This document shows, piece by piece, positions 7,177-33,669 of a stretch of DNA of 42,141 nt. How positions within the stretch are numbered: position 1 is the stretch's first letter; every line of letters begins with the position of its first letter. Source of the DNA: Chloroflexota bacterium (GTDB lineage Bacteria > Chloroflexota > Anaerolineae > Promineifilales > Promineifilaceae); contig JAKEFB010000008.1 in NCBI GenBank assembly GCA_022616275.1, positions 1 through 42,141 of the forward strand, in the 5' to 3' direction. A program made the position numbers and the translations under genes. The notes beneath the pieces are model-generated. The model was not told the DNA's origin. It did not search any database and saw only the letters and a list, made by a program, of their open reading frames with translations.

Positions 7177-7210
7177 AAATCCAAAATCTAAAATCTAAAA
7201 TCCAAAATTC
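7177..7210. repeat. Heptad repeat, AAATCYA
   Basis: Five head-to-tail 7-base words, AAATCCA, AAATCTA, AAATCTA, AAATCCA and AAATTC, fill most of the gap between the ATPase stop and the permease start. The region just upstream (about 7150-7172, including the end of the ATPase gene) is a degenerate inverted copy. No ribosome site is visible for the permease. Confidence 0.8.
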
Positions 7211-7215
7211 ACAAC

Positions 7216-8160
7216 ATGGCTCGTTACTTACTTCGCCGTCTCGGATTCCTGGTCCTGACCCTACTGGTGACCTCCCTGGTCATCTTTATCGTGACCCAGT
7301 TTCTGCCGGGCGACGTGGCCCGCGTCGTCTTGGGGCGGGAGGCCGGCGAAGCGGCGCTGGAAGCGTTCCGCGAAAAATACGGCCTGAACGATCCGCTGCC
7401 GATCCAGTACGGCCGCTGGCTGGCCAATTTTGTCAGGGGTGATTGGGGCGAGTCCATTGCCTTCCGCAGCGAAATCCGGCCGGTGATCATGCAGCGGCTG
7501 CGCAACTCCCTGATGCTGGCCGGCATCACCTTGCTCATTTCTGTGCCCCTGGCCGTGCTGCTGGGCGTCATTGCCGGGCTGAACGAAAACAAATTGCCGG
7601 ATAACGCTATTAACATCCTGTCTCTATCTGTGGTTGGCCTACCCGAATTTGTCACCGGGCTGTTGTTGATTGAGCTGTTCTCCCGCCGTTACCGCCTGCT
7701 GCCCCCCAACTCCTCTATTGAACTGGACGCCAGCTTCCGTGAGGCTTTGCCCATGCTGGTTTTGCCGGCCGTCACCGCCACGCTGGTGCTCCTGGCCTAC
7801 ATTGCCCGCCTCACCCGGGCCGGCGTGGTCGAGGAGCTGAAAAAGGCCTACGTTCGTACCGCCATCCTCAAGGGCGTCCCCCGGCGCCAGGTCATCGTCC
7901 GCCACGTCCTGCGCAACGCCCTGCTGCCGACCATTACCGTCATTGCTATCAGCTTTGGCTGGCTGATCAGCGGTCTGATCGTCATCGAAAACGTCTTCAA
8001 CTACCCGGGACTCGGCCGGCTGCTGGTTTTTGCCATTGACCGGCGCGACCTGCCCCTGATGCAGGCCGTCACCATGGTCACCGTCCTTGGCTTTGCCCTG
8101 GCCAACCTGACGGCCGACCTTTTATACGCCTATCTCAATCCCCGCATTCGGCTGGGTTAG
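7216..8160 (+). CDS. ABC transporter permease, DppB/OppB type
   Basis: This inner-membrane permease has 314 residues and six predicted helices. The N-terminus MARYLLRRLGFLVLTLLVTS is typical of DppB. It continues with the FLPGDVAR and GLNDPLPIQYGRWLANF segments. The EAA loop is around RTAILKGVPRRQVIVRHVLR, and the IENVFNYPGLGRLLVFAI motif is near the C-terminus. It forms the channel with the DppC-like subunit at 4161-5036. Its position after the ATPase is unusual for this transporter family. No Shine-Dalgarno is seen because the heptad repeat occupies the spacer. Its TAG stop lies inside the first arm of the palindrome at 8156. Confidence 0.94.
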   Translation: MARYLLRRLGFLVLTLLVTSLVIFIVTQFLPGDVARVVLGREAGEAALEAFREKYGLNDPLPIQYGRWLANFVRGDWGESIAFRSEIRPVIMQRLRNSLMLAGITLLISVPLAVLLGVIAGLNENKLPDNAINILSLSVVGLPEFVTGLLLIELFSRRYRLLPPNSSIELDASFREALPMLVLPAVTATLVLLAYIARLTRAGVVEELKKAYVRTAILKGVPRRQVIVRHVLRNALLPTITVIAISFGWLISGLIVIENVFNYPGLGRLLVFAIDRRDLPLMQAVTMVTVLGFALANLTADLLYAYLNPRIRLG

Positions 8161-8198
8161 AGATAGAGTTAGAGTGTCACTCTAACTCTATCTCTAAC
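8156..8198. terminator. Perfect 21-bp palindrome between convergent genes
   Basis: Arms 8156-8176 and 8178-8198 are exact reverse complements around a single T. Each arm is built from 6-base words (TAGAGA, TAGAGT, TAGAGT). The permease stop lies in the left arm and the thioesterase stop begins two bases past the right arm, so it probably works as a bidirectional terminator, although no clean T tract is present. Confidence 0.8.
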
Positions 8199-8199
8199 T

Positions 8200-8658
8200 T
8201 TACCGGCCGGCCGCCTGTTCGCCCCGCAGCGTCATGCACGTGCTGCTGGCCCGGGCCACCAGGCTGTCCTGCTCGTCTACAATATCGCACTCCGCCAGGC
8301 CCACCGTCCGGCCGCGCTTGACCACCCGGCCGGTGGCCCGTAGCTTCGCTTTGCGGATCGGCTTCAGGAAATTGATCTTCAGTTCCAGTGTCGTAAACGT
8401 CTCTCCCGGCTCCAACGTGGACACGTAGGCCATCCCCATTGCCGCGTCGGCCACGTCACAGAGAATGCCGCCATGCACCGTGCCCATCGGGTTAAAATGC
8501 CGTTCGTCCGATTCAAAAGACACTTCCACCCGGCCCTTTTCCACGGCCACTATTTCAAAGCCGATAAAGCGGGCCACCGGCGGAGGTAGCGCTTCACCGC
8601 GCAAGACCATCGCTGGAAAATCGGCTATCCTTGGCTCCTTGGAGCGTTCCTCGTCCAA
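8200..8658 (-). CDS. PaaI-like hotdog thioesterase
   Basis: This single-domain hotdog-fold acyl-CoA thioesterase has 152 residues. The family motif HFNPMGTVHGGILCDVADAA holds the HGG turn and an Asp that serves as general base in PaaI relatives. ETFTTLELKINFLKPI is the typical central strand. It is expected to hydrolyse acyl- or aryl-CoA in the cytoplasm. The start is TTG at 8656-8658, chosen because AGGAGG lies six bases upstream; an overlapping ATG at 8660-8662 is out of frame. It converges with the ABC operon and has no partner on its own strand. Confidence 0.88.
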   Translation of the reverse strand: MDEERSKEPRIADFPAMVLRGEALPPPVARFIGFEIVAVEKGRVEVSFESDERHFNPMGTVHGGILCDVADAAMGMAYVSTLEPGETFTTLELKINFLKPIRKAKLRATGRVVKRGRTVGLAECDIVDEQDSLVARASSTCMTLRGEQAAGR

Positions 8659-8726
8659 CCATCACCTCCTGTAACCGGCTAACATTGATATCCAATCTTA
8701 GCCCGAAACGTGCGCCCCTGCTACCC

Positions 8727-8753
8727 GTTGCACCTTTCGTTCTGTGCTACAAT
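8727..8753 (+). promoter_or_regulatory. Extended -10 promoter, probably leaderless
   Basis: TTGCAC (8727-8732) and TGC-TACAAT (8745-8753) form an extended -10 promoter with a short 15-bp spacer. The -10 box ends seven bases before the ATG at 8761, so transcription should begin at or next to the start codon, and no ribosome site is present. Confidence 0.55.
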
Positions 8754-8760
8754 AGCCTCA

Positions 8761-9069
8761 ATGTTAGACGAGCTTTTTGCCATTACTAAAAATCTGAATC
8801 ACCGCTTTCCCGACGGTAACCAACCATTCCAGATTATGACGCGGATGTTAGAAGAATGTGGGGAGCTAGCCCAACAGGTAAACCATTTCGAGAGCACGGG
8901 GGTGAAACAGCAGAAATACGGCGTGCCGGACAAGACCAAAATGGCCAAGGAAGTCATGGATGTCATTCGTGGCGCCCTTCAGATCGCCCTATATTACGGC
9001 CTGGAGGCAGAGGTAGAAGCCTTCTTTGAAACGGCGTACCGGTCGCTGCCGCCTGAGCATCGTGCATGA
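8761..9069 (+). CDS. MazG-like NTP pyrophosphohydrolase
   Basis: This small all-alpha protein has 102 residues. The MazG/dUTPase-like metal-binding pattern is visible: EECGELAQQV supplies the first acidic helix and KEVMDVIRGALQIA the second (E-x-x-D type). Such enzymes hydrolyse NTPs or dNTPs to NMP plus pyrophosphate, often as house-cleaning. The ATG at 8761 is chosen because it begins seven bases after a TGCTACAAT extended -10 box. The upstream GTG at 8710 would place the promoter inside the gene. Its stop overlaps the next gene as ATGA, so the pair is translationally coupled. Confidence 0.75.
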   Translation: MLDELFAITKNLNHRFPDGNQPFQIMTRMLEECGELAQQVNHFESTGVKQQKYGVPDKTKMAKEVMDVIRGALQIALYYGLEAEVEAFFETAYRSLPPEHRA

Positions 9070-10142
9070 TACGAACGGCCATTTTCGGCCTGGGCAAAGT
9101 GGCCGAGCAGATCCACATTCCCGCCTGCCAGACCGTCGAGGAAATCCAGTTGGTCGCCGGCTGCGACCCGGCCGGCAACCGGCGCGAGGCGATGCAGGCC
9201 CGCTTTCGCCTGCCGGCCGTTTATGCCGGCGCCCAGGAGTTGCTGGAAAAGGAACAGCCGGAGCTGGTCATTATTGGTACGCCGCCCGACAGCCACAAGG
9301 ATTTATGCCTGCTGGCTCTGGAGCAGGGCGCGCACGTCCTGTGTGAGAAACCGTTTATGCCCTCCGTGGCCGACGCCGACGAGGTCATCGCCGCGGCCGC
9401 CCGGAACCGCCGTCTGCTGGCCGTCAACAACCAGTACCGTTACATGAACACCTACCGCCAGGCGCAGGAGCGGCTGGCGCGGGGCGACTTCGGCCGCCTC
9501 TTTTTCCTCCACTGCTGGCAACAAATGTTCCACCCACCAGCCCTGGAACCGGCCCCCTGGCGCTCCGCCCTCAAGCGTTCCACCCTCTTTGAGTTTGGCA
9601 CTCACGCTCTGGACCTGATCACCTTCTTTTTCGACGCCCTGCCCGTAGCTGTAGGCGCGGCCATCCCCCGCGCCCGGCCGGAATACGACGCCGACGTCCT
9701 CGTCCACCTGACCCTCTATTTCCCCGACGAGCGGCTGGCCACGATGACCCTCAACCGGGTCAGCCACGCCCCGGAGCGTTACCTGGAGATGCGCCTGGAC
9801 TGCGAAAAGGCTTCATTGCGTCTCTCTCTGGGCGGGGTGGGCCGCGCCTCGTTTGGCCTGACCCGCTATCACGGCCGTTCTCGCCCCCAGGCCCGCTTCA
9901 GCTTCGTCAAAGGCGGCGAAGCCCGGGCCGAGGTCGGCTGGCGCTCTAGCTTGCTGGCGGCCGAGCCGCGCCCGGCCTTTGCCAGTGCCACGGCCGCCCA
10001 CCTGCGCCACCTGCTGCCGGAAATGCAGCAGCCCATTCCCAGCCTGGACCACGCCCGCCACGCCCGCGAGGTGCTGCGGCTGGTCTTTGCCGGTTATGAA
10101 GCGGCCGAAAAGCAGGCTATCATTACGAGTGATGAGCAATGA
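9066..10142 (+). CDS. Gfo/Idh/MocA family oxidoreductase
   Basis: This NAD(P)-dependent sugar-type dehydrogenase has 358 residues. The Rossmann motif is GLGKVA at 8-13 and the family signature is Glu94-Lys95-Pro96 (HVLCEKPF). A C-terminal alpha/beta substrate domain begins near residue 125. The substrate cannot be read from sequence; myo-inositol, glucose-fructose and biliverdin relatives all share this fold. It overlaps the MazG-like gene by four bases (ATGA). The C-terminal residues SDEQ and the TGA stop are encoded by the ATGAGCA heptad repeat, so the end of the protein has been shaped by that element. Confidence 0.9.
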   Translation: MIRTAIFGLGKVAEQIHIPACQTVEEIQLVAGCDPAGNRREAMQARFRLPAVYAGAQELLEKEQPELVIIGTPPDSHKDLCLLALEQGAHVLCEKPFMPSVADADEVIAAAARNRRLLAVNNQYRYMNTYRQAQERLARGDFGRLFFLHCWQQMFHPPALEPAPWRSALKRSTLFEFGTHALDLITFFFDALPVAVGAAIPRARPEYDADVLVHLTLYFPDERLATMTLNRVSHAPERYLEMRLDCEKASLRLSLGGVGRASFGLTRYHGRSRPQARFSFVKGGEARAEVGWRSSLLAAEPRPAFASATAAHLRHLLPEMQQPIPSLDHARHAREVLRLVFAGYEAAEKQAIITSDEQ

Positions 10143-10152
10143 GCAATGAGTA
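10132..10152. repeat. Heptad repeat, ATGAGCA
   Basis: Three tandem words ATGAGCA, ATGAGCA and ATGAGTA lie across the end of the oxidoreductase gene. They are the reverse complement of the CTCATTG array at 18586-18630, so the same word occurs in two places 8.4 kb apart in opposite orientation. Confidence 0.75.
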
Positions 10153-10163
10153 AGGAGAAACTG

Positions 10164-11501
10164 ATGCGTCCATTGTACGCTGTTCTATTGATTACTCTGC
10201 TGTCGGTGGCTTGTAGCTCCGGCCAGCAGAATGCTACCCAGGAAGCGGCCATAGCCAGTAACCCGGCCGGCGCTCCGGCGATGGATACAGCAATCACGGC
10301 GACCAGCGTTCCCACGCCGGAGCGGACGGCCCCGGCCGTCAGGATTGAAGAAGCACCGGCAGCCACCAGCGCTCCGACCATGGCTGCCCCCACTGTTACT
10401 CCTTTGCTACCTCCTGTCGAGGCTACTCTCCCGGCCGAGGGCGCGGCCTTTGCCGTGGCCGGCGATGGAACCATTTACGTCGTCGCCGGCGATGGGGACA
10501 GGAACGTCCTCGTCTATCGCTCGACCGACGGCTTCGGCGAACCGGTCCTGATCAACCCTGGCAAGCCGGCTTTTACTGCTCCGGCCGAAGTCCCTGGGGT
10601 TATTGCCTACCCCGACGGCCGGGTGGGCGTCACCTGGCTCGAACTCCTGGGCCATGAAGCCTCGATCATCTGGTACGCCGAATCGGCCGACGGCGGGCAG
10701 ATGTTTGGCAATCCCGTCCAGGTTAACGACCAGACTCAAGGGCACCAATCACTACCCCGCATTGTCGCCGGCGAAAACAATCTCCTGGTCGCCTGGCTGA
10801 ATCGCGCCGGGCTATTCCGGGCCATTTCCCAGGACGGTGGAGAATCGTTCCTGCCTACCGAATTGTTAGACGAGGAGGTGTGTAATTGCTGCCGGCCGGA
10901 ACTGGTCGTGGCTGGCAACCGGGTTATCCTCACTTATCGCAACGTCGAGCGAGACGAAAACGACCGGGAAATTCGCGACATTTACGTGGCCACCTCAGAG
11001 GACGGCGGCCAGACGTTCCAGGAGCCGCTGCGGGTCAGCGACGCGCCCTGGTACCTCAACTCCTGCCCCTCCTCCGGCCCGGTCATCGCCACTCACGACG
11101 ACACCGTCTACGTTGCCTTCATGGACGGCCGGAACGATGACGGCTCCCAAACCCGGGCCGACATTTACCTGGCCACCTCCACTGACGGCGGCCAGAGCTT
11201 CTCCCCCAACGTGCGCGTCAACCCGGCCGCAGCCGGCTTTCACAGCCTGGCGGCCCTGGCCGTTGGCCCGGATGGCGCGTTGCACGTCACCTGGCAGGCC
11301 ATCGAGGACAACCGGCAGAAGATCTACTACGCTACCTCCAATGATGATGGGCTGACCTTTAGCCAGCCCCAGGTCATTGTCGAAAACGGCGACGACTCCG
11401 GCCGCGGCCGGCCCAACCACCCCACCGTGTACGTGGACCAGGCCGGCCGGGTCTACCTGATGTGGCTGGACAAACTGGGCGCTCACCTGATTAGCCTGTA
11501 A
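10164..11501 (+). CDS. BNR/Asp-box repeat lipoprotein, sialidase-like fold
   Basis: This exported lipoprotein has 445 residues. A short signal peptide ends in LLSVAC (Cys17), an Ala/Pro/Thr-rich linker runs to about residue 95, and a beta-propeller follows. Six Asp-boxes are visible: STDGFGEP, SADGGQMF, SQDGGESF, SEDGGQTF, STDGGQSF and SNDDGLTF. Such propellers occur in sialidases, but the catalytic Arg triad and Tyr/Glu pair cannot be assigned, so a binding or structural role is equally possible. The ATG at 10164 is preferred to the one at 10146 because AAGGAG lies six bases upstream of it. A strong terminator follows directly. Confidence 0.82.
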   Translation: MRPLYAVLLITLLSVACSSGQQNATQEAAIASNPAGAPAMDTAITATSVPTPERTAPAVRIEEAPAATSAPTMAAPTVTPLLPPVEATLPAEGAAFAVAGDGTIYVVAGDGDRNVLVYRSTDGFGEPVLINPGKPAFTAPAEVPGVIAYPDGRVGVTWLELLGHEASIIWYAESADGGQMFGNPVQVNDQTQGHQSLPRIVAGENNLLVAWLNRAGLFRAISQDGGESFLPTELLDEEVCNCCRPELVVAGNRVILTYRNVERDENDREIRDIYVATSEDGGQTFQEPLRVSDAPWYLNSCPSSGPVIATHDDTVYVAFMDGRNDDGSQTRADIYLATSTDGGQSFSPNVRVNPAAAGFHSLAALAVGPDGALHVTWQAIEDNRQKIYYATSNDDGLTFSQPQVIVENGDDSGRGRPNHPTVYVDQAGRVYLMWLDKLGAHLISL

Positions 11502-11506
11502 ACTCT

Positions 11507-11543
11507 AACCTCCCGGAGGTTGCGATCCTCCGGGAGGTTTTTT
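11507..11543 (+). terminator. Rho-independent terminator of the BNR lipoprotein gene
   Basis: A perfect 13-bp stem (11507-11519 with 11527-11539), a 7-base loop TTGCGAT and a run of T (11538-11543) make a textbook terminator. The loop and T tract also hold promoter elements for the next gene. Confidence 0.9.
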
Positions 11544-11548
11544 ATAAT
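11520..11548 (+). promoter_or_regulatory. Promoter threaded through the terminator
   Basis: TTGCGA (11520-11525, the terminator loop) and TATAAT (11543-11548, starting at the last T of the tract) are separated by exactly 17 bp. It would drive the FAD oxidoreductase gene with a leader of about 25 nt. Confidence 0.55.
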
Positions 11549-11579
11549 CCCCCCTTTGCGTGACGAGGGATCAAATCCA

Positions 11580-12965
11580 ATGACCAGAACAGTGGTTTTA
11601 GGCGCGGGCCTGGCCGGCCTGCGTGCAGGTGTGGCCCTGGCGGCCGCCGGGCACGAGGTCACTCTGCTGGAAAAAGAGCCGGAGGCCGGCGGCATTGCCC
11701 GGACCATATCCTTGAACAGCTTTCTCTTCGACCACGGCCCGCATGGCTTCCATAGCCGCGACAACGACCTGGTGGAAGAGTTCAAGACGTTCGTCGGCGA
11801 AGGCAATTACCACCGCTTCGCCAAGCGGTCCCGCATTTATTTTAACGGCGCCTACTTTGATTACCCGCTCAAGCTGCGCGACCTGGCCTTCAACATGGGG
11901 CCTAACCGGCTGGCTTCGGCCCTGTTCAGCTACTTGTACGCCCGTATCCAGCGTGCCCTGGACGGCCGCAAAGCCAGTAACGCCGAAGAGTACCTGGTCG
12001 GCCAGTTCGGCCGTGTCTTTTACGACGCCTTCTTTGGTCCCTACACCGCCCGCGTCTGGGGCATCTCCCCCTCGCGTATAGACGCCGACTTTATCGAAGA
12101 CCGCGTGCCCCACGTCAGCCTGGGGAGCGTGATCAAGCAACTGTTCCTGCCCGACAAAAAGCCCCGGCTATCACCCTCCGGCCGGCCCATCGTCCACGAC
12201 ATCCACTATGGTTACTATCCAAAGTACGGCATCCAGGTCTTAAGTGAAGGCCTGGCCCGTTGCTACCGGGAGTTGGGCGGCCACCTTTGCCTCTCGACTA
12301 GGCCCGTGGCCATAGACACGGCCGACCGGCGCATTATCGTCCGGCAAAACGGGGAGGCTCACGACCTGGCCTATGACCATGTGGTTTCTACCATTCCCCT
12401 GGATAGCCTCATCCGGCTGATTACCCCGGAACCGCCGCCGGAGGTCCAGGCGGCCGTGGCCAGTCTCGTCTACCGGCCGGTTGTCCTGGTCTGCCTGTGT
12501 ATCAACCGGCCGCAGGTCTTCGACGTTTTTTGGGTCTACTACGCCGAGGGCGAGTTCAATCGCATCTCCGAAATCAAGCACTTCAGCCCCCACCTGGCGC
12601 CGGAGGGAAAGACCGGGCTATGCGTGGAAATCTCCTCCAGTCCCGAAGAACTGCAAGGCGCCGGCGACGAAACCTTTTACCGGCGCAGCGTGGCCGAACT
12701 GAAAAAGATCAAGCTGTTAGATGAAGCCGAAATTGAGGATTATTTCGTCATTCGCGAAACCAACGCCTACCCCATTTACCACATCGGCTACCGGGACACC
12801 TTAAAAACGCTCCTGGACTTCGTGAAAAGCCGCGGCATTGAAACGGCCGGCCGCCAGGGCGAGTTCAGCTACATCAACATGGACCAAGCCATGCGCTCCG
12901 GCCGGGAAGCGGCTGGGCGCGTTATCGCCGCGGCCGCTAACGTTCCACTAACCAACTATGTCTAA
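11580..12965 (+). CDS. FAD-dependent oxidoreductase, protoporphyrinogen-oxidase/UGM-like
   Basis: This flavoprotein of the amine-oxidase superfamily has 461 residues. The dinucleotide-binding start is VVLGAGLAGLRAG (Gly8, Gly10, Gly13), followed by the acidic strand end LLEKEPEAGG and the DHGPHGFHS region. Central and C-terminal parts resemble protoporphyrinogen oxidase and UDP-galactopyranose mutase relatives. Being first in a row of glycan genes, it more likely acts on a nucleotide sugar or lipid-linked sugar than on heme. That is inference from context. The ATG at 11580 is used; earlier in-frame codons lie inside the terminator. It overlaps the acetyltransferase gene by eight bases. Confidence 0.82.
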   Translation: MTRTVVLGAGLAGLRAGVALAAAGHEVTLLEKEPEAGGIARTISLNSFLFDHGPHGFHSRDNDLVEEFKTFVGEGNYHRFAKRSRIYFNGAYFDYPLKLRDLAFNMGPNRLASALFSYLYARIQRALDGRKASNAEEYLVGQFGRVFYDAFFGPYTARVWGISPSRIDADFIEDRVPHVSLGSVIKQLFLPDKKPRLSPSGRPIVHDIHYGYYPKYGIQVLSEGLARCYRELGGHLCLSTRPVAIDTADRRIIVRQNGEAHDLAYDHVVSTIPLDSLIRLITPEPPPEVQAAVASLVYRPVVLVCLCINRPQVFDVFWVYYAEGEFNRISEIKHFSPHLAPEGKTGLCVEISSSPEELQGAGDETFYRRSVAELKKIKLLDEAEIEDYFVIRETNAYPIYHIGYRDTLKTLLDFVKSRGIETAGRQGEFSYINMDQAMRSGREAAGRVIAAAANVPLTNYV

Positions 12966-13980
12966 CTTTGACGACCTTTCCGCCCTCTTTGACGATCCGG
13001 TTCGCGCTGTGCTGGCCGCTTATCCTTACCACCCCTGGCGCACCGCCTTCCAGGTCTCGCCTGAGGAAGTGGCCCGGCGGGAACTGGTTCTGGTGAACCA
13101 GGTGAGTGAGGGAGATGGCCTGGCTACGGTGAACGGGACAGAGGACCAACCCGGAGGGTTGGCCACCTTAGCACCCCGCTCCTGGGAAAGCCAGTTCTAT
13201 CCCTTTGCCCTGGGCCACGTGCCGGTCATTGCTGTGGCTGAGAGCGTTAAAAGCCCGCGCCAGGAGTATGGCGGTTTACTGGACTGGGCCTTGGACCAGG
13301 CCCGCCACGACCTGGACGTCCAGCACCTCTTTTGCCGCGCCCCGGCCGAGGACATCGCCCTGGTTCACGCCCTGGAGGGGGCCGGCTTTTACCACGTGGC
13401 CACTATGCTGGAGTTTGCCTGGCGGCGCGACGAGACGCGGGACGCTCCGGCCGTGAGCTGGCCACTGCGCCCCGCCACAGGCGACGACTGGCCGGCCATT
13501 GAGACCCTAGCCCGGGCCACCATGACCGAGATCCCCACCCGCTACACGGCCGACCCGCATCTGCCTCTGGCCGGCACTCAGGAGTTATACGCTGCCTGGG
13601 CGGCCGAGTCCCTGCGCGGCAACTTTGCCGATGTCGTCCTGGTGATCACTGAGGGTGAGGCCGTGGCCGGCTTTATCTGCGGCCGTTTTGATCCCCGGCT
13701 CGGCGAGGTGTTGGGCGGCCCGGCAGGCGACATGACCATCGGCGGGGTGGAGCCTGGCCATCGCCAGCGGGGCGCTTTTCTCTCTTTGGTCCAGGGGTTG
13801 CTTAACTGGTTTTGGGAACACGGCGCTCAAACCGTTATTACCCGCACCCAGTTGACCAACTACGGCTCGCAGCGCACCCTCTTTCGCTGCCACGGCCGGA
13901 TTGTCAGTACCCATCATTGCTTCCATTGCTGGCTACCCTCTATCTATGACCGGCGTTCGAAAACATTGGTTATCCTCTAG
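12958..13980 (+). CDS. GNAT acetyltransferase, WecD-like
   Basis: This 340-residue protein has a divergent N-terminal half and a GNAT domain in the C-terminal half. The segment SWESQFYPFALG (about 80-91) resembles the start of WecD/RffC amino-sugar acetyltransferases. The C-terminal VEPGHRQRGAFLSL is the acetyl-CoA pyrophosphate loop, followed by TQLTNYGSQRTLFRCHGR and a final FHCW, as in WecD relatives. The likely reaction is acetylation of an amino sugar used by the downstream glycosyltransferases. It is tightly packed: it overlaps its upstream neighbour by eight bases and the GT39-like gene by 35 bases. Confidence 0.75.
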   Translation: MSNFDDLSALFDDPVRAVLAAYPYHPWRTAFQVSPEEVARRELVLVNQVSEGDGLATVNGTEDQPGGLATLAPRSWESQFYPFALGHVPVIAVAESVKSPRQEYGGLLDWALDQARHDLDVQHLFCRAPAEDIALVHALEGAGFYHVATMLEFAWRRDETRDAPAVSWPLRPATGDDWPAIETLARATMTEIPTRYTADPHLPLAGTQELYAAWAAESLRGNFADVVLVITEGEAVAGFICGRFDPRLGEVLGGPAGDMTIGGVEPGHRQRGAFLSLVQGLLNWFWEHGAQTVITRTQLTNYGSQRTLFRCHGRIVSTHHCFHCWLPSIYDRRSKTLVIL

Positions 13981-15688
13981 CGTTCCGGTAATAGCCCTCC
14001 TGGCCGGCGGGCTGTTACTTCTGGCCCTATTCTTGCCGGGGCCGGCGCTGGCCACCCGCCTGGCTGGCGACAACGCCGCCCGCCTGCCCGCCTTGCAGGC
14101 AGGAACCGTGATTTTGCGCCTGGCTCTGGCCACCACAGCCGGATTGCTGCTGGTCGAGAGCTACGGCCGGCGCTGGTTTGACTCGCCCGGCCTGCCCCCG
14201 GCCGTTACCGGGTTGTTGTTGGGGCCGGAGAGGTGGGTTCAACAGCAGGAACGGCCGCGCCACCGGCTGCTGGCTGGGCTGGTGATCCTGGCCGCGGCCC
14301 TCCGCCTGGTGGCGCTGAACCGGGACCTGTGGCTGGACGAAATTGCCACCCTGGTCGAATACGCCCGGCTGCCGTTCCTGGAAACGGTAACCACTTTTGT
14401 CAGCGCCAATCAGCACCCCCTTTACTCGGCCTTTTCCAGCCTCAGCCTGTCCCTCTTGGGCGAGAGTGCCTGGGCGGTGCGGCTGCCGGCCGTGCTCTTT
14501 GGCGTGGCCGGAATACCAGCCCTTTACTATTTTGCCCGCGTCTTGACCAGCGAGCAGGAAGCGTTGTGGGCCACGGCTCTGCTGGCCGTCTCTTACCATC
14601 ACGTCTGGTTTTCCCAGAATGCGCGCGGCTGGATCGGCCTGCTCTTTTTCGTCCTGCTGGGCAGCGGCCTCTTTCTGCGGGCGCTGGCCCAAAACCGCCG
14701 GGCCACCTGGCTGGCTTACGCCGTGGTCATGGTCCTGGGCATTTTTGTGCACCTCAACACCCTCTTCGTCTTCCTGGGCCACCTGGCGGCTTACCTGTTC
14801 GTTCTGCCGCGCTGGCCGGGCTGGGCCCGGCAGCATTGGCCGCTAACCCGGCGGCTGGTCTGGGTAAGCCTGCTCACCGGCAGCCTGTCCATTGCCCTGT
14901 ATAGCTTCATCCTGCCGGAAATGGTCGTCTATTATCAGACGGCCGACCGCACCGGCGTGGGCTGGGCCAACCCGCTCGACCTGCTGGCCCAGGTGACTGT
15001 GGGACTGCTGGCCGGTTTCCTGCTGGCCGGCCTGCTCGTCCTGGGACCGGTGATGCTGGCCGGCCTGGCCAGTTACTGGCGGCAGAGCCGGCTGCTCATT
15101 GGCTTGCTCATCTTTCCGGCCGGCTTTAACGCCCTGGCCCTGCTGGCCCTCCAGGTTGGGGCCTACCCCCGCGCCTTTCTTTATCTTCTGCCCCTGGGCC
15201 TGGTTGTTGCCGTACGCGGCGCTTTTGTCTCGATCGGCTGGCTGGCTGGCCGGCTGGCCGGCGCGGCCGGGAGCTGGCTGCGGCAATACGGCGGCGCAGC
15301 CCTGCTGGGGCTGCTGGTCGTGGCCTCGCTCCTGTCGTTGATACCTTACTACCGCGTCCCCAAGCAAAATTACACCGGCGCGCTGGCCTACGTGGAAGAG
15401 CGGCGAGAGCCGGGCGACGTGGTCGCGGCCGTGGGCCTGGCCATCTCCAGCTACCGTGTCCTTTACGCCCCCAATCTGGCCTTCCCGGAAACAGCCGAAG
15501 AGCTGGCCGCCTTGCGTGGCCCAGATCACGCCACCTGGGTCATCTACACCTTTCAACGGGACATGCGTATCCGCTACAATGACCTATACAACGCCATCGA
15601 GCGCGATTTCACCCTGGAAGCCGCCTTCCCCGGCACCGTCGGCGACGGCACGGTCTGGGTCGTCAGAAGTAAAGATGGCCCTGGTTAA
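13946..15688 (+). CDS. GT39/ArnT-like membrane glycosyltransferase
   Basis: This polytopic membrane protein has 580 residues and roughly a dozen hydrophobic segments. It belongs to the dolichyl/undecaprenyl-phosphate-sugar-dependent (PMT_2) superfamily. Key features are the loop LWLDEIATLVEYARLP with the conserved Asp-Glu pair and the ANQHPLYSAF motif after it. These enzymes transfer a sugar from a polyprenyl phosphate to lipid or protein at the outer face of the membrane. The ATG at 13946 is preferred over an earlier codon at 13901. The start overlaps the acetyltransferase reading frame by 35 bases, which suggests coupled translation. The acceptor is unknown. Confidence 0.87.
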   Translation: MTGVRKHWLSSSVPVIALLAGGLLLLALFLPGPALATRLAGDNAARLPALQAGTVILRLALATTAGLLLVESYGRRWFDSPGLPPAVTGLLLGPERWVQQQERPRHRLLAGLVILAAALRLVALNRDLWLDEIATLVEYARLPFLETVTTFVSANQHPLYSAFSSLSLSLLGESAWAVRLPAVLFGVAGIPALYYFARVLTSEQEALWATALLAVSYHHVWFSQNARGWIGLLFFVLLGSGLFLRALAQNRRATWLAYAVVMVLGIFVHLNTLFVFLGHLAAYLFVLPRWPGWARQHWPLTRRLVWVSLLTGSLSIALYSFILPEMVVYYQTADRTGVGWANPLDLLAQVTVGLLAGFLLAGLLVLGPVMLAGLASYWRQSRLLIGLLIFPAGFNALALLALQVGAYPRAFLYLLPLGLVVAVRGAFVSIGWLAGRLAGAAGSWLRQYGGAALLGLLVVASLLSLIPYYRVPKQNYTGALAYVEERREPGDVVAAVGLAISSYRVLYAPNLAFPETAEELAALRGPDHATWVIYTFQRDMRIRYNDLYNAIERDFTLEAAFPGTVGDGTVWVVRSKDGPG

Positions 15689-15698
15689 CATTTTAATA

Positions 15699-15788
15699 AC
15701 GCGAATCACGCGAATGAACCGGATCACGCGAATTTTTTAAAGAAAATTATTTGCGCCATTCGCTCACTCGCCCCATTCGCGATTTTTA
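15699..15788. repeat. Nonad repeat in inverted arms
   Basis: The 112-bp gap between the GT39 and first GT2 genes holds 9-base words ACGCGAATC, ACGCGAATG, AACCGGATC and ACGCGAATT (15699-15734). An AT-rich centre follows, then an inverted set built on CCATTCGCG-like words (about 15755-15782). It can fold as an imperfect long hairpin. Confidence 0.65.
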
Positions 15789-15800
15789 GACAGGTTCCTT

Positions 15801-16712
15801 TTGAACGAAAATAGGCCTATCCTTTCCGTAATCGTCGCCGGGCAGAACGCGTGGGCCACGGCCGGCGACTGCCTGGCGGCGCTGCTGCCCCAGGCGGCCG
15901 CTGCCAATGCCGAAATGATCTTCGTAGACGGCTCCAACGACGGCACGGCCGACCTGGTAGCCACCAGCTACCCCCAGGTTAAGTTACTACGCTGCGACGC
16001 TCAGGCGCTGGTGCCCCATTTGTGGAAAGCGGGACTGGACCAGGCCAGCGGCCAGGTAGTGGTTTTTACCATTGCCCAATGTATCCCCGCCCCCAACTGG
16101 CTGGCCGCAATCCTGGCCGCCGGCCCGGCCGGTGAGGTGGCCGGCATTGGCGGGCCGATTGACGGCCCGGCCGGCCGGCGCGCCCGCGATTGGGCCCTCT
16201 ACTTCGCCCGCTACAGCGCCTTCCTGCCGCCCGGGGGCGAAGCGGCCGCCCGGCCGATCCAGGACGTGCCCGGCGACAACGCTGCCTACCAACGGGCCGC
16301 GCTGGAATCGTGCCAGGCAGCGATGGCCGGCGGTTTCTGGGAAACGCTGGTCCACGTTTGCCTGCGCCGGCAGGGCCAGACACTGCGCTGGGAGCCGGCC
16401 GTGCGGGTCCGGTTCGGGCCGGTAGACAGTCTGGCTCGCGCCGCCAGCATCCGCCGCCGGCACGGCCAGCACTACGCCGTCACCCGTCCCGGCAACACGC
16501 TGGGCCGGCGGCTGGTCCGTATCCTGGCCTCCCCCCTGCTTCCGCCGCTGCTGCTGGCCCGCATTGCCGGCCGGGTCCGCCGCCAGCGGCCGGAGTGGAC
16601 GCCTCACCTGCTGCGGGCCTTGCCGGCGCTGTTGTTCCTGCTTCTGGCCTGGACGGTCGGCGAGGCCAGTGGCTACCTCCTCGGCCGGCCGCCGTACACC
16701 CCCCGGCCGTAA
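15801..16712 (+). CDS. GT2-type glycosyltransferase, copy 1 (motif-deficient)
   Basis: This is the first of three tandem paralogues, 303 residues. It has a GT-A N-terminal domain with the nucleotide-sugar motif DGSNDGT at 43-49. A C-terminal hydrophobic anchor carries the shared pattern AWTVGEASGYLLG. At the position where copy 2 has TEGHC and copy 3 TEDHC, this copy has TIAQC (90-94), so the acidic residue expected to bind metal and donor is missing. It may be inactive or a partner subunit. The start is TTG at 15801, with no good ribosome site, since the nonad repeat lies upstream. Sugar and acceptor are unknown. Confidence 0.83.
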   Translation: MNENRPILSVIVAGQNAWATAGDCLAALLPQAAAANAEMIFVDGSNDGTADLVATSYPQVKLLRCDAQALVPHLWKAGLDQASGQVVVFTIAQCIPAPNWLAAILAAGPAGEVAGIGGPIDGPAGRRARDWALYFARYSAFLPPGGEAAARPIQDVPGDNAAYQRAALESCQAAMAGGFWETLVHVCLRRQGQTLRWEPAVRVRFGPVDSLARAASIRRRHGQHYAVTRPGNTLGRRLVRILASPLLPPLLLARIAGRVRRQRPEWTPHLLRALPALLFLLLAWTVGEASGYLLGRPPYTPRP

Positions 16713-16720
16713 CCCCCGCC

Positions 16721-23600: not shown

Positions 23601-23615
23601 CTAAGGAGTGGGTTC

Positions 23616-23643: not shown

Positions 23644-26308
23644 CTTCTAACAACAACTGCCCGGCCGCCAGTGGGGCCAGGCTCATGACCACGGCCAGCG
23701 CCCAACCGGCCGGGCCGGGATCAACCACCTGGAGCACGCCGGATAGGCCCGGCAGGTACACGGCCGCGACTACCAATAAAGTACACAGGCCCAACGCACC
23801 CCAGACATATGGGTTGCGGGTAACTTCATTGCTTAAGACGCCGGTGTCGGGGTCACGCATGTTCAAGACGTGCCACAACTGGGCCAGGGCCAGCGTCAGG
23901 AAAGAAATAGTAATGGCCTTTTCCTCCGGCGCCTCCAGCCAGAAGAGGGCCAGGGCCAGCGCGCCCAGCACTGCTATCGTAATGGCCGCGCCAAAGAGGC
24001 CAATTGCCTGCCAGTGCCAGCGGGTGAGGATCGGCTCCTGGGGGTGGCGCGGCGGCCGGCGCATGACCGCCGGATCGCCCTGGCCCATCCCCAGGGCCAG
24101 CGCCGGGAAAACGTCGGTGACCAGGTTCAGGAACAGGATTTGCAGCGGTTGAACCGGCAGCGGCGCATTGACGAGCGACGCCAGGAAAACGACCATCACC
24201 TCACTGACGTTGCAGGAGATAAGGTAGAGGACAAATTTACGGATGTTGCCGTAAATGATCCGCCCCTCCTCAATCGCCGCCGCAATCGTGGCGAAAGAAT
24301 CGTCGCGGAGAACCATGTCGGCCGCTTCCTGGGCCACTTGTGTGCCCCGCAGCCCCATAGCGATGCCGATGTCAGCTTTCTTCAGCGCCGGGGCATCGTT
24401 CACCCCGTCGCCGGTCATGGCCACCACGGCGCCGTTTTTCTGGTGGGCTTCAATCAGGTCCAGCTTCTGGCGTGGCGTCACCCGGGCCAGGATGGGCGCC
24501 TCCAGGATGCGCCGGCGCTGCGCCTGGGGCAGGAGCGGCAAATTGTCTAATTCTTCGCCCAGGATCACGTCAGTGGTGCTGGGCTCACCGTTCCGGCCGT
24601 TGAGCAGGCCGACCGCCTGGCCGATGTTACGGGCCGTCACGGCCTGGTCGCCGGTCACCATCACCACTCGTATCCCGGCCGCCCGGCAGGCAGCAATGGC
24701 TTGTTGCACCTCTTCTCGAGGTGGGTCCAGCAACCCGGCCAGCCCCAGGAACGTTAACCCCTGGTAGGGGTCAGCCTGGGGATTGGCTACCGGCCGGCCG
24801 GCCAGGGCCAACACGCGCAAACCGGCGCCGGCCATCGCCTCATTGCTGGCCAGCCATTCTTCGCGTATGCCGGCTGAAAGGGGGGCGATAGCGTCTGATC
24901 TCAGGACGGCCGTGCTGGCGGCCAGGACCGCTTCCGGCGCGCCCTTGACCACCACCTGATACTGGCCGCCGGCGGTCCGGTGAATGGTGGCCATCAATTT
25001 CAAATCCGGGTCAAAGGCAACTTCGCGTACTTCCGGTTTTTCGGCCAGTAACGTCTGGCGCACCAGGCCGGCCTTGGCCCCGGCCACCAGCAAGGCCACC
25101 TCAACCGGGTCGCCCAGCGATTCATTCGCTTCGCCCAGGGAGGCGTTGTTGCACAACACCCCCGCTTCCAGAGCCTGGTACAGCCCCGGAACCTTTACCG
25201 GCTCGACGATATTTCCGTTCTGGTGAAATGCTCCTTCCAGTTCCAGCCCTTCGCCGCTGACTGTAAAGTCACCCGACGGCAGCGCCAGCCGGGTGACGGT
25301 CATCTGGTTTTCGGTCAGCGTCCCGGTCTTGTCGGTGCAGATGAGGCTGGCGCTGCCCAGCGTCTCCACGGCCGCCAGCCGGTTGACCAGGGCGTTGCGG
25401 CGAGCCATACGCATCATACCTCGAGCCAGGGCAATGGTGGCCACGATAGGCAGCCCTTCAGGGATGGCGGCCACAGCCAGGGCCACGCCCGTGCCAATCA
25501 TGAGCAGCACGTCCCGCCCTCGGGCGATGCCCAGCCCGGCAACGACGACGATAATGACCAGCACGACCCAGACCAACCGCCGGCCGAGACTCTCCAGCCG
25601 CTTTTCCAGCGGGGTAAATTCCTTGTGCGCCTCCTGGACCAGGGCGGAAATCTGGCCCAGCTCGGTGGCCATGCCGGTGCCCACGAGCACGCCCTCGCCG
25701 GCGCCTCGGGTCACGCCCGTGCCTTTGTAGAGCATATTGGAGCGCTCGGCCAGGGGCGTTTCTTTGGGCAGGGGGGCCTGTTGTTTCTCGACCGGGACCG
25801 ATTCGCCGGTCAGGGTTGATTCGTTGGCCTGGAGTCCTGATGATTCAATCAGCCGCATATCGGCCGTGATGACGTCGCCGCCCTCGACGATGACGATGTC
25901 TCCCGGGACCAGCTCTTCGGCGTTGACCTCCTGCTCCCGGCCGTTGCGCCGGACGCGGGCCTTGACACTGCCCATTTTTTGCAGCGCTTCCATGGAGCGA
26001 ACGGCGTTCAGCTCCATGGCAAAGCCAATAGCCGCATTCAAGAAGATGACGACCAGCACGGCCAGGGCATCTACGATTTCGCCAAAGGCAAAGGAAACGC
26101 CGGCCGCCACGGCCAGCAGCAAGACGATGAGGTTCTTAAATTGTTTGACGAGGATCTCCCCCAGGCTGACAGGCCGGGCCTGTTGCAGCCGGTTAGGCCC
26201 GTATTGCTCCTGTCGCTCCTGCACGCCGGCCGTGTCTAGCCCGCTCTCGGCCGAGACGCCCAGAGTGGCTAACAGTTCTGTGGCTGGCTGGGTCCAGAAT
26301 TCGCTCAA
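23624..26308 (-). CDS. Cation-transporting P-type ATPase, Ca2+ (type II) class
   Basis: This polytopic pump of 894 residues exports cations, probably Ca2+, at the cost of ATP. In order: an N-terminal cation-ATPase domain, the actuator loop LTGESVPVEK (near 166), and the M4 motif AAIPEGLP typical of calcium pumps. Then come the phosphorylation site DKTGTLTEN with Asp326, the hinge MTGDGVNDAPALKKADIGIA (near 629), and the M6 segment NLVTDVFPALALGMGQGD. The start is TTG at 26306-26308 with no strong ribosome site, chosen because it gives the normal N-terminal length. The C-terminus runs into a heptad array. Metal specificity is inferred from PEGLP and NLVTD only. Confidence 0.92.
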   Translation of the reverse strand: MSEFWTQPATELLATLGVSAESGLDTAGVQERQEQYGPNRLQQARPVSLGEILVKQFKNLIVLLLAVAAGVSFAFGEIVDALAVLVVIFLNAAIGFAMELNAVRSMEALQKMGSVKARVRRNGREQEVNAEELVPGDIVIVEGGDVITADMRLIESSGLQANESTLTGESVPVEKQQAPLPKETPLAERSNMLYKGTGVTRGAGEGVLVGTGMATELGQISALVQEAHKEFTPLEKRLESLGRRLVWVVLVIIVVVAGLGIARGRDVLLMIGTGVALAVAAIPEGLPIVATIALARGMMRMARRNALVNRLAAVETLGSASLICTDKTGTLTENQMTVTRLALPSGDFTVSGEGLELEGAFHQNGNIVEPVKVPGLYQALEAGVLCNNASLGEANESLGDPVEVALLVAGAKAGLVRQTLLAEKPEVREVAFDPDLKLMATIHRTAGGQYQVVVKGAPEAVLAASTAVLRSDAIAPLSAGIREEWLASNEAMAGAGLRVLALAGRPVANPQADPYQGLTFLGLAGLLDPPREEVQQAIAACRAAGIRVVMVTGDQAVTARNIGQAVGLLNGRNGEPSTTDVILGEELDNLPLLPQAQRRRILEAPILARVTPRQKLDLIEAHQKNGAVVAMTGDGVNDAPALKKADIGIAMGLRGTQVAQEAADMVLRDDSFATIAAAIEEGRIIYGNIRKFVLYLISCNVSEVMVVFLASLVNAPLPVQPLQILFLNLVTDVFPALALGMGQGDPAVMRRPPRHPQEPILTRWHWQAIGLFGAAITIAVLGALALALFWLEAPEEKAITISFLTLALAQLWHVLNMRDPDTGVLSNEVTRNPYVWGALGLCTLLVVAAVYLPGLSGVLQVVDPGPAGWALAVVMSLAPLAAGQLLLEVMRTED

Positions 26309-27047
26309 TACTCAGCACCATTACCTCAGAATTTACGGCGCACAGTTGCCAGGGCGTCGAGACGATGAATCTGCGCCCGCAAGTGTAGTCGCAGGCTGCG
26401 GCCGTTACCTGATCTTTTACGAGCAAATTGAATCGTAGACAATAGTCCTGGGTATAGGAATGGGGTACATTCTGGGTTACGTTTTGGAGCAGTTTGGAGC
26501 GAGAGCGAGAGAGGGGGCGGGGGGTGAGGAGGTGAGAGGGTGAGAGGGTGACAAGGTGACAAGGAAGGGGAACGCGGATTGACGGGATTGGCGGATTGGG
26601 GGAGAGGGGGAGTTAGAGCGAGAGCTAGAGGGAGAGGGGAGAGGGAGAGTTAAGGATACGGTGAGAGGTTGGAGTGAAGGGGGAAGGTGCGCAAGGTGTG
26701 CAAGGAGATCATGATCATAATAAAATATTTTTTGGATACATCGGTCTTGCCTGAATTAAAAACCCCCATATGACGCTTTTAAAGCCAGAATTTGCGCTCA
26801 AACACCATATGCGGCGATGGATGTGACCTGGGTACTATGCAGAGGTGTAAGGGTGTGAGGGTGATGGATTTAATGTTTTGGAGCACACGGCCATTCAAAA
26901 TGGATATAGCGATCATATTTGGTATCTTCTTCCAGGGGAAAGGAGGCAAGATGGAAATCGAAATCCTCTAGAGCAACAATTATTGATACCTCGAACCTTG
27001 TTTGCGGGCTGAACCGGGTAACTTGCCGGAGGGTATAGAAAATAGCC
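26309..27047. other. Gene-poor, compositionally odd interval
   Basis: No convincing gene is seen in these roughly 740 bases. From 26309 to 26490 is the upstream region of the P-type ATPase without an obvious promoter. From 26495 to 26708 the plus strand is strongly purine-rich. From 26709 on the DNA turns AT-rich, with few GGCCGG words. A strong AAAGGAGG followed by an ATG at 26951 opens only a six-codon frame, which could be the remnant of a lost gene. Confidence 0.6.
26524..26563. repeat. Octad repeat within a purine-rich tract
   Basis: Five 8-base words in register are GTGAGGAG, GTGAGAGG, GTGAGAGG, GTGACAAG and GTGACAAG. The surrounding tract (26495-26708) is almost all G and A on the plus strand, with several runs of three to six G that could form a quadruplex. 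The word GTGACAAG returns at 33654-33661. Confidence 0.75.
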
Positions 27048-32289: not shown

Positions 32290-32315
32290 ACGGTTGGCAG
32301 AGGGTGGGTATCACG

Positions 32316-32378
32316 TATCAGGTGTCAGGTGTCAGCTACCAACTACCAACTATCAACCACCAACCATCAACTCTCAAC
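32316..32378. repeat. Nine heptads in one register, consensus NNYCARS
   Basis: Words in order are TATCAGG, TGTCAGG, TGTCAGC, TACCAAC, TACCAAC, TATCAAC, CACCAAC, CATCAAC and TCTCAAC. Positions 4-5 are always CA and position 3 is always a pyrimidine, although the other positions vary. It lies between divergent promoters for yggS and the Vgb-like gene. Confidence 0.88.
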
Positions 32379-32380
32379 CA

Positions 32381-32389
32381 TGTTATAAT
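32381..32389 (+). promoter_or_regulatory. Extended -10 promoter of the Vgb-like gene
   Basis: TGT-TATAAT (32381-32389) is an extended -10 element directly after the heptad array. No good -35 is seen; the array occupies that place. It would give a leader of about 60 nt. Confidence 0.55.
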
Positions 32390-32412
32390 CTGGTCCATAC
32401 GCCGCCACGCTG

Positions 32413-32436
32413 AAAGCTAATAGCTAACAGCTTTTT
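32413..32436 (+). promoter_or_regulatory. Terminator-like hairpin in the Vgb-like leader
   Basis: Three heptads, AAAGCTA, ATAGCTA and ACAGCTT, form a small stem (AAAGCT with AGCTTT) followed by five T. It lies between the promoter and the GGAGGT ribosome site, so it could attenuate the message. The stem is weak. Confidence 0.35.
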
Positions 32437-32454
32437 ACCACGGAGGTACAAGTA

Positions 32455-33627
32455 ATGGTTTTTAAGCGTCGAACCTTTCGAGCCTATCTTCTGGCCGCCC
32501 TGATGCTGGTTGGTTGTGAAACTGCGTCCACCCCGGCCGCGCCAACCACTGTATCGCCGGCGACTGAACCGGCCGCGCCAGCACCCGCTACGGCAACCGG
32601 CCCGGCCGGCGTGGAGACAACGGCCGGGCCTGATACGGTGACTGCGGCGCTGGAATCAACAGCTTCTGCCACGGCCGCTGCGGCAAATGAGGCAGCCCCC
32701 ACGGCCGCGCCCACGCAACCGCCTCTAGCCCAACCCACTATTCAAGAATACCCGGTTCCGCCGGGGTCGCACCCACACGACGTGGCCCCTGCGCCCGACG
32801 GCTCGGTCTGGTATACAGCCCAACATACGGGCGAACTGGGGCGGCTGGACCCGGCGACCGGCGAGGTCCATCATATTCCACTGGGCGCCGGCTCGGCGCC
32901 ACATGGCGTCATCGTCGGCCCGGACGGCGCGCCGTGGATCACCGATGGCGGGCTGAACGCCATCGTCCACGTAGACCCGGTAACCGAGGAAGTGCAAACA
33001 TTCCCCCTGCCGGCCGGGAGCGGCTCCGCCAACCTGAACACGGCCGCTTTCGACGGCCGGGGCATCCTCTGGTTTACCGGGCAGAGCGGCCTGTACGGCC
33101 GGGTGGACCCGGCGACCGGGGAGGTGGAAGTGTTCAGTGCGCCGGGCGGCCGGGGGCCGTACGGAATTGCCACCACCCCGGCCGGCGAGGTGTATTACGC
33201 CTCGTTGGCCAGTAGTTACATCGGCCACATTGATCTGGATACGGGCGAGGTGGAAGTGCTCGATCCGCCGACGGCCGGCCAGGGAGCGCGCCGGGTCTGG
33301 TCCGACTCGCAGGGCCGCCTGTGGGTGAGCGAGTGGGACGCTGGCCAGGTAGCCATGTACGACCCGGCCAACGGCGCCTGGCGCGAGTGGCCCTTACCCG
33401 GCAATAACCCGCAACCGTATGCGGTTTTCGTGGACGACCAGGACCAGGTCTGGCTGAGCGACTTTGGGGCCAACGCCCTGGTGCGCTTTGACCCGGTGTC
33501 AGAGAGCTTTGAGGTCTTTACCCTGCCCAGCTCCCCGGCTAACGTGCGCCAGATTCTAGGCCGGCCGGGCGAGGTGTGGGGGGCGGAATCGGGGGTAGAT
33601 CAATTGGTGGTGGTACGTACACAGTAA
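32455..33627 (+). CDS. Vgb-like beta-propeller lipoprotein
   Basis: This exported lipoprotein has 390 residues. The signal peptide ends in LMLVGC (Cys21), an Ala/Thr/Pro-rich linker runs to about residue 95, and a beta-propeller related to virginiamycin B lyase follows. Repeats of about 42 residues carry phrases such as GRLDPATGEV, HVDPVTEEV and GHIDLDTGEV. It may bind or cleave a small molecule outside the cell. The Vgb catalytic residues cannot be assigned with certainty, so the lyase function is not claimed. ATG 32455 has GGAGGT eight bases upstream. Its stop is followed closely by octad words and the toxin-antitoxin pair. Confidence 0.82.
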   Translation: MVFKRRTFRAYLLAALMLVGCETASTPAAPTTVSPATEPAAPAPATATGPAGVETTAGPDTVTAALESTASATAAAANEAAPTAAPTQPPLAQPTIQEYPVPPGSHPHDVAPAPDGSVWYTAQHTGELGRLDPATGEVHHIPLGAGSAPHGVIVGPDGAPWITDGGLNAIVHVDPVTEEVQTFPLPAGSGSANLNTAAFDGRGILWFTGQSGLYGRVDPATGEVEVFSAPGGRGPYGIATTPAGEVYYASLASSYIGHIDLDTGEVEVLDPPTAGQGARRVWSDSQGRLWVSEWDAGQVAMYDPANGAWREWPLPGNNPQPYAVFVDDQDQVWLSDFGANALVRFDPVSESFEVFTLPSSPANVRQILGRPGEVWGAESGVDQLVVVRTQ

Positions 33628-33645
33628 ACGGTACATGCTATATAC

Positions 33646-33669
33646 TTGACAAGGTGACAAGGTGGCGAC
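33646..33669. repeat. Octad words before the DUF433 gene
   Basis: TTGACAAG, GTGACAAG and GTGGCGAC are in 8-base register directly upstream of the antitoxin start. The word GTGACAAG is shared with 26548-26563. The GGTGG near the end may serve as a weak ribosome site. Confidence 0.55.

Follow-up and report, generated by a model that had tools for sequence, protein, structure and literature searches.

Tandem words of six to nine bases at gene borders of a Chloroflexota genome, with word replacement between species of a related genus

Our analysis concerned the window, the whole 42,141-nucleotide contig JAKEFB010000008.1 of the Chloroflexota bacterium assembly GCA_022616275.1 (contig C257 of a 309-contig, 8.53-Mb genome), together with further parts of that genome and with its relatives. 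Among 80 loci retained, the closest named match to its formate-THF ligase came from a MAG called Promineifilum sp. SSF11 (81% identity), in keeping with membership of that family of the Anaerolineae. It revealed that short words of 6–9 nt are arrayed in tandem at gene borders, far above the number seen in shuffled sequence, and that these words recur from one border to another. The arrays often form convergent pairs able to fold into one long stem, and at several orthologous borders of the related genus g23 the whole word has been replaced between species.

In a 667-kb genome sample, partly picked from contigs known to carry the word RGAGATT and including 65.6 kb of intergenic DNA, we found 89 intergenic arrays with periods of 4–15, against 0.3 in shuffles. 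A fixed-step subset taken through the contigs (231 kb, with 24.8 kb intergenic) gave 30 arrays against 0.05. Coding DNA, as delimited by a simple in-house gene caller, held 34 arrays of period 6–9 in 552 kb. By period, the 89 intergenic arrays comprised 51 of period 7, 14 of period 8, 10 of period 14, six of period 6, three of period 9, and five others. The initial annotation of the window had proposed one recurring class of intergenic repeats, most often of period 7, alike in architecture while the word differs between most sites, and had named counts no higher than in shuffled intergenic DNA as a refutation. The large excess and the period counts agree with this, and the genome sample and the orthologous slots described below bear out the single class with its common architecture.

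The vocabulary is large. RGAGATT was found at 34 sites of the genome sample, followed by GACGACR-like and GTTATTR/GTAATTR-like words at 10 sites each. Further recurring words were GATTTTR, the period-6 GAGCYA group, GAGCRAT-like words, GTTGATR, GTGTCAR, GTAATTGR, and the period-8 words GCGAGTYT and GGTGACAA. Both in the window genome and in genus g23, six positions of RGAGATT show at least 94% conservation, whereas the remaining one is G or A in a ratio of about 70:30. Of the 53 family genomes, 25 had an exact match to a 21-base RGAGATT pattern, as did 41 of the 199 class genomes, which belong to many families; within genus g23 the number of matches per genome ranged from 5 to 621. The reversed pattern, used as a control, gave far fewer matches, with a maximum of 21 in one family genome. 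Across the class the word is plentiful in some scattered families (e.g. f16, f18, f26, f40, f44, and f46) and was not found in many others. One g23 genome, G041, had only five matches against 48 to 621 in five congeners, and has other words at L112 1835–1940 (CAGTARYC, TACTGAA).

Whether such arrays occur in relatives had been left by the initial annotation as a point on which it could fail. They were present in sampled relatives such as genus g23, G024 (genus g4), and G014, but none was found in the samples of G003, G005, G007, and G038. G024 is equally dense, with 23 arrays in 9.8 kb, but uses a different set of words (GAATGAC, GAATTAG, and CACCCGC types), and G014 had six arrays in 13.1 kb. 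The relatives' genomes are mostly multi-contig drafts, with an estimated contamination of 5–9% in some; all come from genera other than that of the window genome, and the word swaps are shown in genus g23, at sites outside the window.

Strand order and independence of the arms

Among inverted neighbours with homologous words, the G-rich arm was the leading one in 50 of 51. A further 18 neighbours were classed as having different words: 11 were G-then-C, none was C-then-G, and seven were on the same strand. On visual inspection, however, three or more of the 11 resemble a single word. Because the CGTAAYC family is a C-first exception, we recounted polarity by word rather than by G>C skew, and no reversed pair was found among 118 inverted pairs. 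Only groups with more than one member can show a reversal, so that 104 of these pairs, in 13 multi-member groups, are informative (orthologous copies of congeners are not independent). In single arrays (n = 95) the G-rich strand pointed from the border into the gap in 71 and the opposite way in 24.

The arms are about 28 bp long, each with about four words of 6–9 nt, and in this clustering the detection threshold cuts off short arms. Arms longer than 40 bp were found in none of 102 paired and in 21 of 146 unpaired arrays (p = 9e-6), as if the length of the palindrome were policed. The lengths of paired arms correlated poorly (0.26 in the window genome and −0.01 in G042).

It had also been suggested that an array grows by slippage in one arm and is copied to the other through the hairpin. 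The same word usually stands in both arms, as this would predict. However, the variable base of RGAGATT matched that of its partner no more often than by chance in 47 hairpins, which refutes arm-to-arm copying for this word, and as a general model it is hardly credible. Register-0 matches in six sets were 21/40, 28/49, 20/34, 9/19, 4/4, and 0/2, against shuffled-arm expectations of 0.49, 0.53, 0.55, 0.46, 0.75, and 0.00, respectively, the last two sets being tiny. The pooled combinations over these hairpins were GC 47, AT 21, GT 25, and AC 28 (association p = 0.37), and they gave no sign of selection favouring wobble pairs at this base. The two hairpins read in sister species, at L099:1178 and L106:3323, persist with the states of their variable bases unchanged; therefore the independence of the arms is probably not the result of decay after copying.

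The other half of that suggestion, growth by slippage, found support at L106:7810, where the array measures 89 bp in one species and 47 bp in its sister and shows a dimer expansion. A 20-word array of G022 has a block structure, as expected from slippage. Along ordinary arrays the order of A and G was mostly near random, and copy-paste of whole arrays was rejected on that ground. The departures were at lag 3 in the window genome (29/42 vs 0.47, standard deviation 0.07), at lag 1 in G043 (28/63 vs 0.53, standard deviation 0.05), and at lag 2 in G022 (34/49 vs 0.57, a value influenced by one long array). A GNRA motif shared by the 5′-arm words was unconvincing (12/25, against 8/25 reversed and 2/25 reverse-complemented).

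Orthologous slots in genus g23

We aligned four blocks of G042, each of 20 kb, with their counterparts in G043, G044, G045, and G022. The comparison covered 59 gaps of 15–600 bp, of which 47 were represented in two or more species, and we measured flank identities against G042 over 300 bp on each side. Arrays were present in at least two of the five species at 25 orthologous slots. In 108 species pairs with arrays on both sides, the word was the same in 58, near (two changes) in 18, shifted in period in nine, and unrelated in 23, the last from nine sites. Among 3,207 non-orthologous pairs 14% had the same word and 58% had unrelated words. The higher sharing in orthologous slots indicates that words are clearly, though not fully, inherited.

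Among the clean swaps recognised by eye were those at L106:3989, L106:3323, L101:16105, L100:10523, and L101:1399. At two of the nine unrelated-word sites, L101:9834 and L101:11630, the arrays lie at different places in the gap and no clean swap was seen. The clearest slot is L106:3989, where the same two genes in five species enclose four different stems (GGAGATTR, TGTGTCA, GGTAATTG, and a plain hairpin) between flanks 90–95% identical to G042. Between G042 and G043 the hairpin there is wholly different while the flanks are 94/95% identical, and the slot L106:3323, at a distance of about 600 bp, has 99% identity between the same two species. Thus, as the initial annotation had proposed, the architecture can stay while the sequence changes. 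The change is not always abrupt: in orthologous gaps shorter than 180 bp, identity between G042 and G043 ranged from 0.30 to 0.99 with intermediates.

Non-tandem stems also occupy such slots, at L099:1178 (G044), L100:18138 (G045), and L106:3989 (G022). A stem scoring at least 12 was found in 87 of 165 intergenic instances, and at least one of five shuffles reached this score in 1 of 165. One plain hairpin, AGACATCCGATTT..AAATCGGATGTCT, was found at several gene borders in more than one species, at L099:1178 in G044, L100:18138 in G045, and L103:18136 in G042.

Sites in the window

The initial annotation had named 14 tandem sites in the window, and the period it gave was present at or near the given base in all of them; at 22215 the best-scoring arm is the partner at 22253. 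Each site was tested singly against 500 local dinucleotide shuffles. At nine sites no shuffle was as good, and those at 15699, 19157, 23550, 32413, and 33646 were matched by 1–4 shuffles and are weak singly. The description of the words as often forming two inverted arms holds in part: strong stems were found at four of the seven sites folded (8156, 19157, 20127, and 22215, with z scores of −8.5, −5.5, −6.9, and −8.4), but not at 18586 (z +0.7) or 32316 (z +1.1), and the stem at 7177 is weak (z −2.2). The placement at gene ends or in leaders is likewise right for most sites, which border genes, whereas the array at 26523–26564 lies more than 200 bp within a 739-bp gap.

Four of the sites are hairpins with two arms, given here without strand. 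The period-6 hairpin GTTAGA/TCTAAC at 8156–8199 starts at the stop codon of the gene at 7216–8160 and has an RNA fold of −32.3 kcal/mol. The period-8 hairpin GTAATTGA/CCAATTAC at 19157–19227, whose first arm alone was matched by 1 of 500 shuffles, lies between genes called convergent. The period-7 hairpin GTTATTR/YAATAAC occupies 20126–20185. The last, at 22215–22283, is the period-7 hairpin RGAGATT/AATCTCY, formed by the commonest word of the genome sample, and a search of the window genome with it gave 78 matches at E ≤ 1e-3, a count that covers both strands and includes the query.

All other arrays of the window are read on the plus strand. The single-arm, period-7 array AAATCYA at 7177–7208 (Tandem Repeats Finder [TRF] score 50) and the array ATGAGCA at 10132–10150, which has 2.7 copies of period 7 with 100% match and spans the end of the gene at 9066–10142, were both unmatched in 500 shuffles. 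So were the single-arm array GCTCATY at 18585–18629 (TRF score 76 at period 14 and 69 at period 7) and the unpaired period-8 array GGTGAGAA/GGTGACAA at 26523–26564. A degenerate period-9 array, AATCACGCG, lies at 15695–15733 (70% matches; 3/500 shuffles), and a weak period-9 repeat, CACAGAGAT, at 23550–23566 (2/500 shuffles) is absent from the TRF list. Both TRF and the local shuffles support the period-7 array TCCTCAG/TCATCAC at 23614–23640 and the two adjoining period-7 arrays at 32308–32378, which have different words (GTATCAR, then CAACYAT) and no joint fold. A weak period-7 repeat AGCTAAT was found at 32415–32432 (4/500 shuffles) and a period-8 repeat TGACAAGG at 33647–33664 (1/500 shuffles).

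The loop of the RGAGATT hairpin contains, at 22238–22254 (no strand assigned), a mini-hairpin of the type GGCAACC-NNN-GGTTGC with two changes. The full form, GGCAACC-NNN-GGTTGC(TCA), stands in either orientation in the loops of several RGAGATT hairpins, and the core is common to the loops of L002–L008 near 1520. Exact copies of a 19-base form numbered 15 in the window genome, two in G044, one in G045, and none in the other 50 family genomes, and its reversed control had no copy. In the window alone, with two mismatches allowed, the count was not above chance (three matches against 3.0 expected). Variants were found inside a plain hairpin of G042 (L103:18136) and within a GGTGACAA region of the window genome (L069:11856). 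Small dispersed repeats embedded in heptamers of Nostoc punctiforme were reportedly described by Elhai et al. in 2008. The mini-hairpin, also a short dispersed element nested in heptamer arrays, resembles these repeats; sequence and lineage differ. Other dispersed repeats of about 90–160 bp, at L101 6631–6787, 11812–11975, and 17821–17909, have many copies in genus g23, mostly 78–96% identical among the matches listed.

Two further features of the window are a perfect AT-rich palindrome of 40 bp at 40712–40751, directly upstream of the gene at 40024–40713, and a strong terminator-like stem with a T tract at 11507–11539, just past the gene at 10146–11501. No covariance model of Rfam 15 matched the window at gathering scores.

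Origin, known repeats, and meaning

We tentatively favour, at a probability of roughly 0.4, an account in which slippage growth, length policing, one-step replacement from a genomic pool of words, and a weak role at transcript borders act together. It starts from the observations that arrays at borders are often convergent pairs forming one long stem, that a recurring word keeps one strand, the 5′ arm having the same word and mostly G>C, that words are used at many sites, and that whole words are replaced between congeners at several slots. Polymerase slippage would lengthen and shorten the arrays, and stems with arms above about 40 bp would be removed by palindrome surveillance such as SbcCD, which cuts long palindromes. 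A break or stall at a stem might then be repaired by template switching, with an array or hairpin elsewhere in the genome as the template, so that a single event would rewrite the slot with a word from the genome's own pool. A border stem would bring a weak benefit, most likely through an RNA structure by which the end of the transcript is marked or protected. If any border stem will do, its spelling would drift by replacement.

SbcD was found in seven of eight genomes tested, including the array-rich G000, G042, and G024, so that surveillance of long palindromes is possible in these. Several results weigh against the favoured account. SbcD is also present in G007, G003, and G038, whose samples were array-free, and is missing only in the array-free G005; it does not discriminate between the two groups and was dropped as a discriminating gene. 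At the threshold used, 146 of 248 arrays were unpaired, and arrays stood on one side only in 66 species pairs (on neither side in 87). Other species had a stem at 13 of 29 array-bearing slots and at 21 of 45 other gaps; that array slots are no richer in stems elsewhere weakens, without excluding, selection for a stem at each array slot. The stems had 28 A-C mismatches, close to the roughly 30 predicted by the margins, and this lack of depletion speaks against strong selection for pairing. Arrays in divergent gaps were weakly depleted in the window genome (7/60, p = 0.028) and not depleted in genus g23 (9/29, p = 0.68). None of 36 terminator-like sites at 7000–26990 lay with its T tract at an array stem, in a scan limited to loops of 3–8 nt, outside of which fall stems with larger loops and the arrays at 32308–33664; the scanned stems are therefore not classical intrinsic terminators. 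Finally, template switching was not observed directly: hairpins with the same loop core showed by eye no evident sharing of the A/G order of their arms.

The undepleted mismatches would also suit neutral or selfish slippage DNA, in which words amplify wherever they are harmless, i.e. at gene borders, and stems and word changes have no function. The density of period 6–9 arrays is 14- to 18-fold lower in coding DNA, and long unpaired arrays with a block structure, among them the one of 20 words in G022 and the one with a dimer expansion at L106:7810, point the same way. However, neutral slippage predicts site-specific words and no strand rule, whereas we found a shared vocabulary and a fixed polarity of pairs; the near-random A/G order in most ordinary arrays, the replacement of both arms in one step, and the clustering of arms near 28 bp, for which the threshold cutting off short arms must be allowed, also speak against it. 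We regard it as doubtful. An exchange of different hairpin alleles between strains, carried with their flanks by homologous recombination and needing no rewriting, is unlikely: flanks somewhat diverged (about 70–99% identical to G042) leave room for imported tracts, but the conserved flanks and neighbouring slot around the wholly different hairpin at L106:3989 do not fit it, and the origin of new words is left unexplained. It is also rather unlikely that the words are binding sites of an RNA- or DNA-binding protein, by analogy with the TAACTGA repeats, for which binding by S1, Csp, and Csr family proteins has been proposed (PMC4679880). The fixed strand in pairs, the four or so words per arm, the identical word in distant families, and, anecdotally, an S1-domain protein gene (22267–23529) adjoining one array would agree with such binding. 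Complete change of the word at one slot between congeners and the many words and several periods in one genome are against it.

A telomerase-like or DRT10-like enzyme might add degenerate words to 3′ ends at breaks, the joined ends becoming convergent arms; DRT10 makes tandem-repeat DNA (PMC12632851, preprint). This would account for the G-rich strand usually running from border to gap, in single arrays and convergent pairs alike, and for arms that share a degenerate word yet have independent bases. At E ≤ 0.001, however, RVT_1 had no match in the array-rich G042 (97% complete) or G024 (99% complete, three contigs), and four in the window genome. A reverse-transcriptase writer is thus improbable, since two near-complete, array-rich genomes lack it; many words would also need many templates. 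Quite improbable too, in our estimate, is a trans-acting system, not based on a known reverse transcriptase, that writes degenerate 6–9-nt words, on a fixed strand and in near-fixed number, on both sides of breaks at gene borders. If such a writer existed, the vocabulary would be a property of the genome and every slot would be rewritable, and the writer would be a bacterial counterpart of telomere addition inside the chromosome. The Y1 transposase was rejected as a discriminating gene: Y1_Tnp occurs in all eight genomes, with or without arrays, and so is not informative on a transposase of repetitive extragenic palindromic (REP) type. REP palindromes and bacterial interspersed mosaic elements (BIMEs) consist of one conserved palindrome in many copies, whereas the stems here are built of tandem words, with different words at different sites.

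Reports of bacterial heptamer repeats go back to about 1990. Mazel et al. (1990) are said to have described the short tandemly repeated repetitive (STRR) heptamers of cyanobacteria, which, like the arrays here, comprise several tandem heptamers per genome; their words and the phylum differ. Three heptanucleotides of Calothrix are mentioned by Rehm et al. 2015 (PMC4692102), where detailed studies of heptamer repeats are described as few. The initial annotation was right to see close analogues in cyanobacterial heptamers, since the GGGGA(C/T)T repeats of Nostoc share period and geometry (PMC4692102). Its view that such a set would be unusual outside cyanobacteria does not stand, examples from Xanthomonas, H. 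pylori, Beggiatoaceae, and Bacteroidetes having been reported (PMC4692102, PMC4679880). According to Rehm et al., the heptamers GGGAATC of Xanthomonas and GGGGA(C/T)T of Nostoc are dispersed between genes with about four units preferred; the G-rich strand is nearest its 5′-side open reading frame, convergent inverted pairs number 70 and 75 cases, few lie between divergent genes, and species differ in array length but usually keep the type, single or pair (PMC4692102). Shared with these are period 7, the excess between genes (51 period-7 arrays among 89), the four or so units, convergent pairs, and the G-first order (50 of 51 pairs and 71 against 24 single arrays, with CGTAAYC as the C-first case). 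Rehm et al., however, deal with a single word type per genome, with GGG tracts and G-quadruplexes (PMC4692102), whereas here there are many words and periods and the word is replaced at the same slot. The four GGG tracts needed for a G-quadruplex are lacking in RGAGATT, GTTATTR, and GTAATTGA, which contain no GGG; GGG is present in some period-8 words of genus g23 (GAGATTGG and GTAATTGG) and in GGGTGGC of G024, for which a quadruplex is possible.

In the P6b stem of the Nostoc trnL intron, which is built of heptamers of Class I or II (Kaasalainen et al. 2015, PMC4476775), the word is likewise replaced whole while the structure remains similar, but P6b belongs to one intron, whereas many gene borders and a genome-wide vocabulary are involved here. 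The TAACTGA repeats of Beggiatoaceae, cyanobacteria, and Bacteroidetes (MacGregor 2015, PMC4679880) are also intergenic heptamers, there mostly in 2–6 copies, and have the same word patchily across distant lineages. In a literature search made largely without subscription journals, the text available to it held no account of such repeats in Chloroflexota. New, then, are the occurrence in this phylum, the large vocabulary with several periods, and the one-step rewriting of slots at several borders.

Genus g23 allows a gap-by-gap comparison of five species, in which the stem can stay while the word swaps in one step. With such slots, with no reversed pair, and with arms that are not copies of each other, the origin of the arrays (slippage, template switching, or a writer) and their function (at transcript ends, or none) become directly testable. 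This suggests the hypothesis that the repeats of Xanthomonas, Nostoc, and Beggiatoaceae are one phenomenon.

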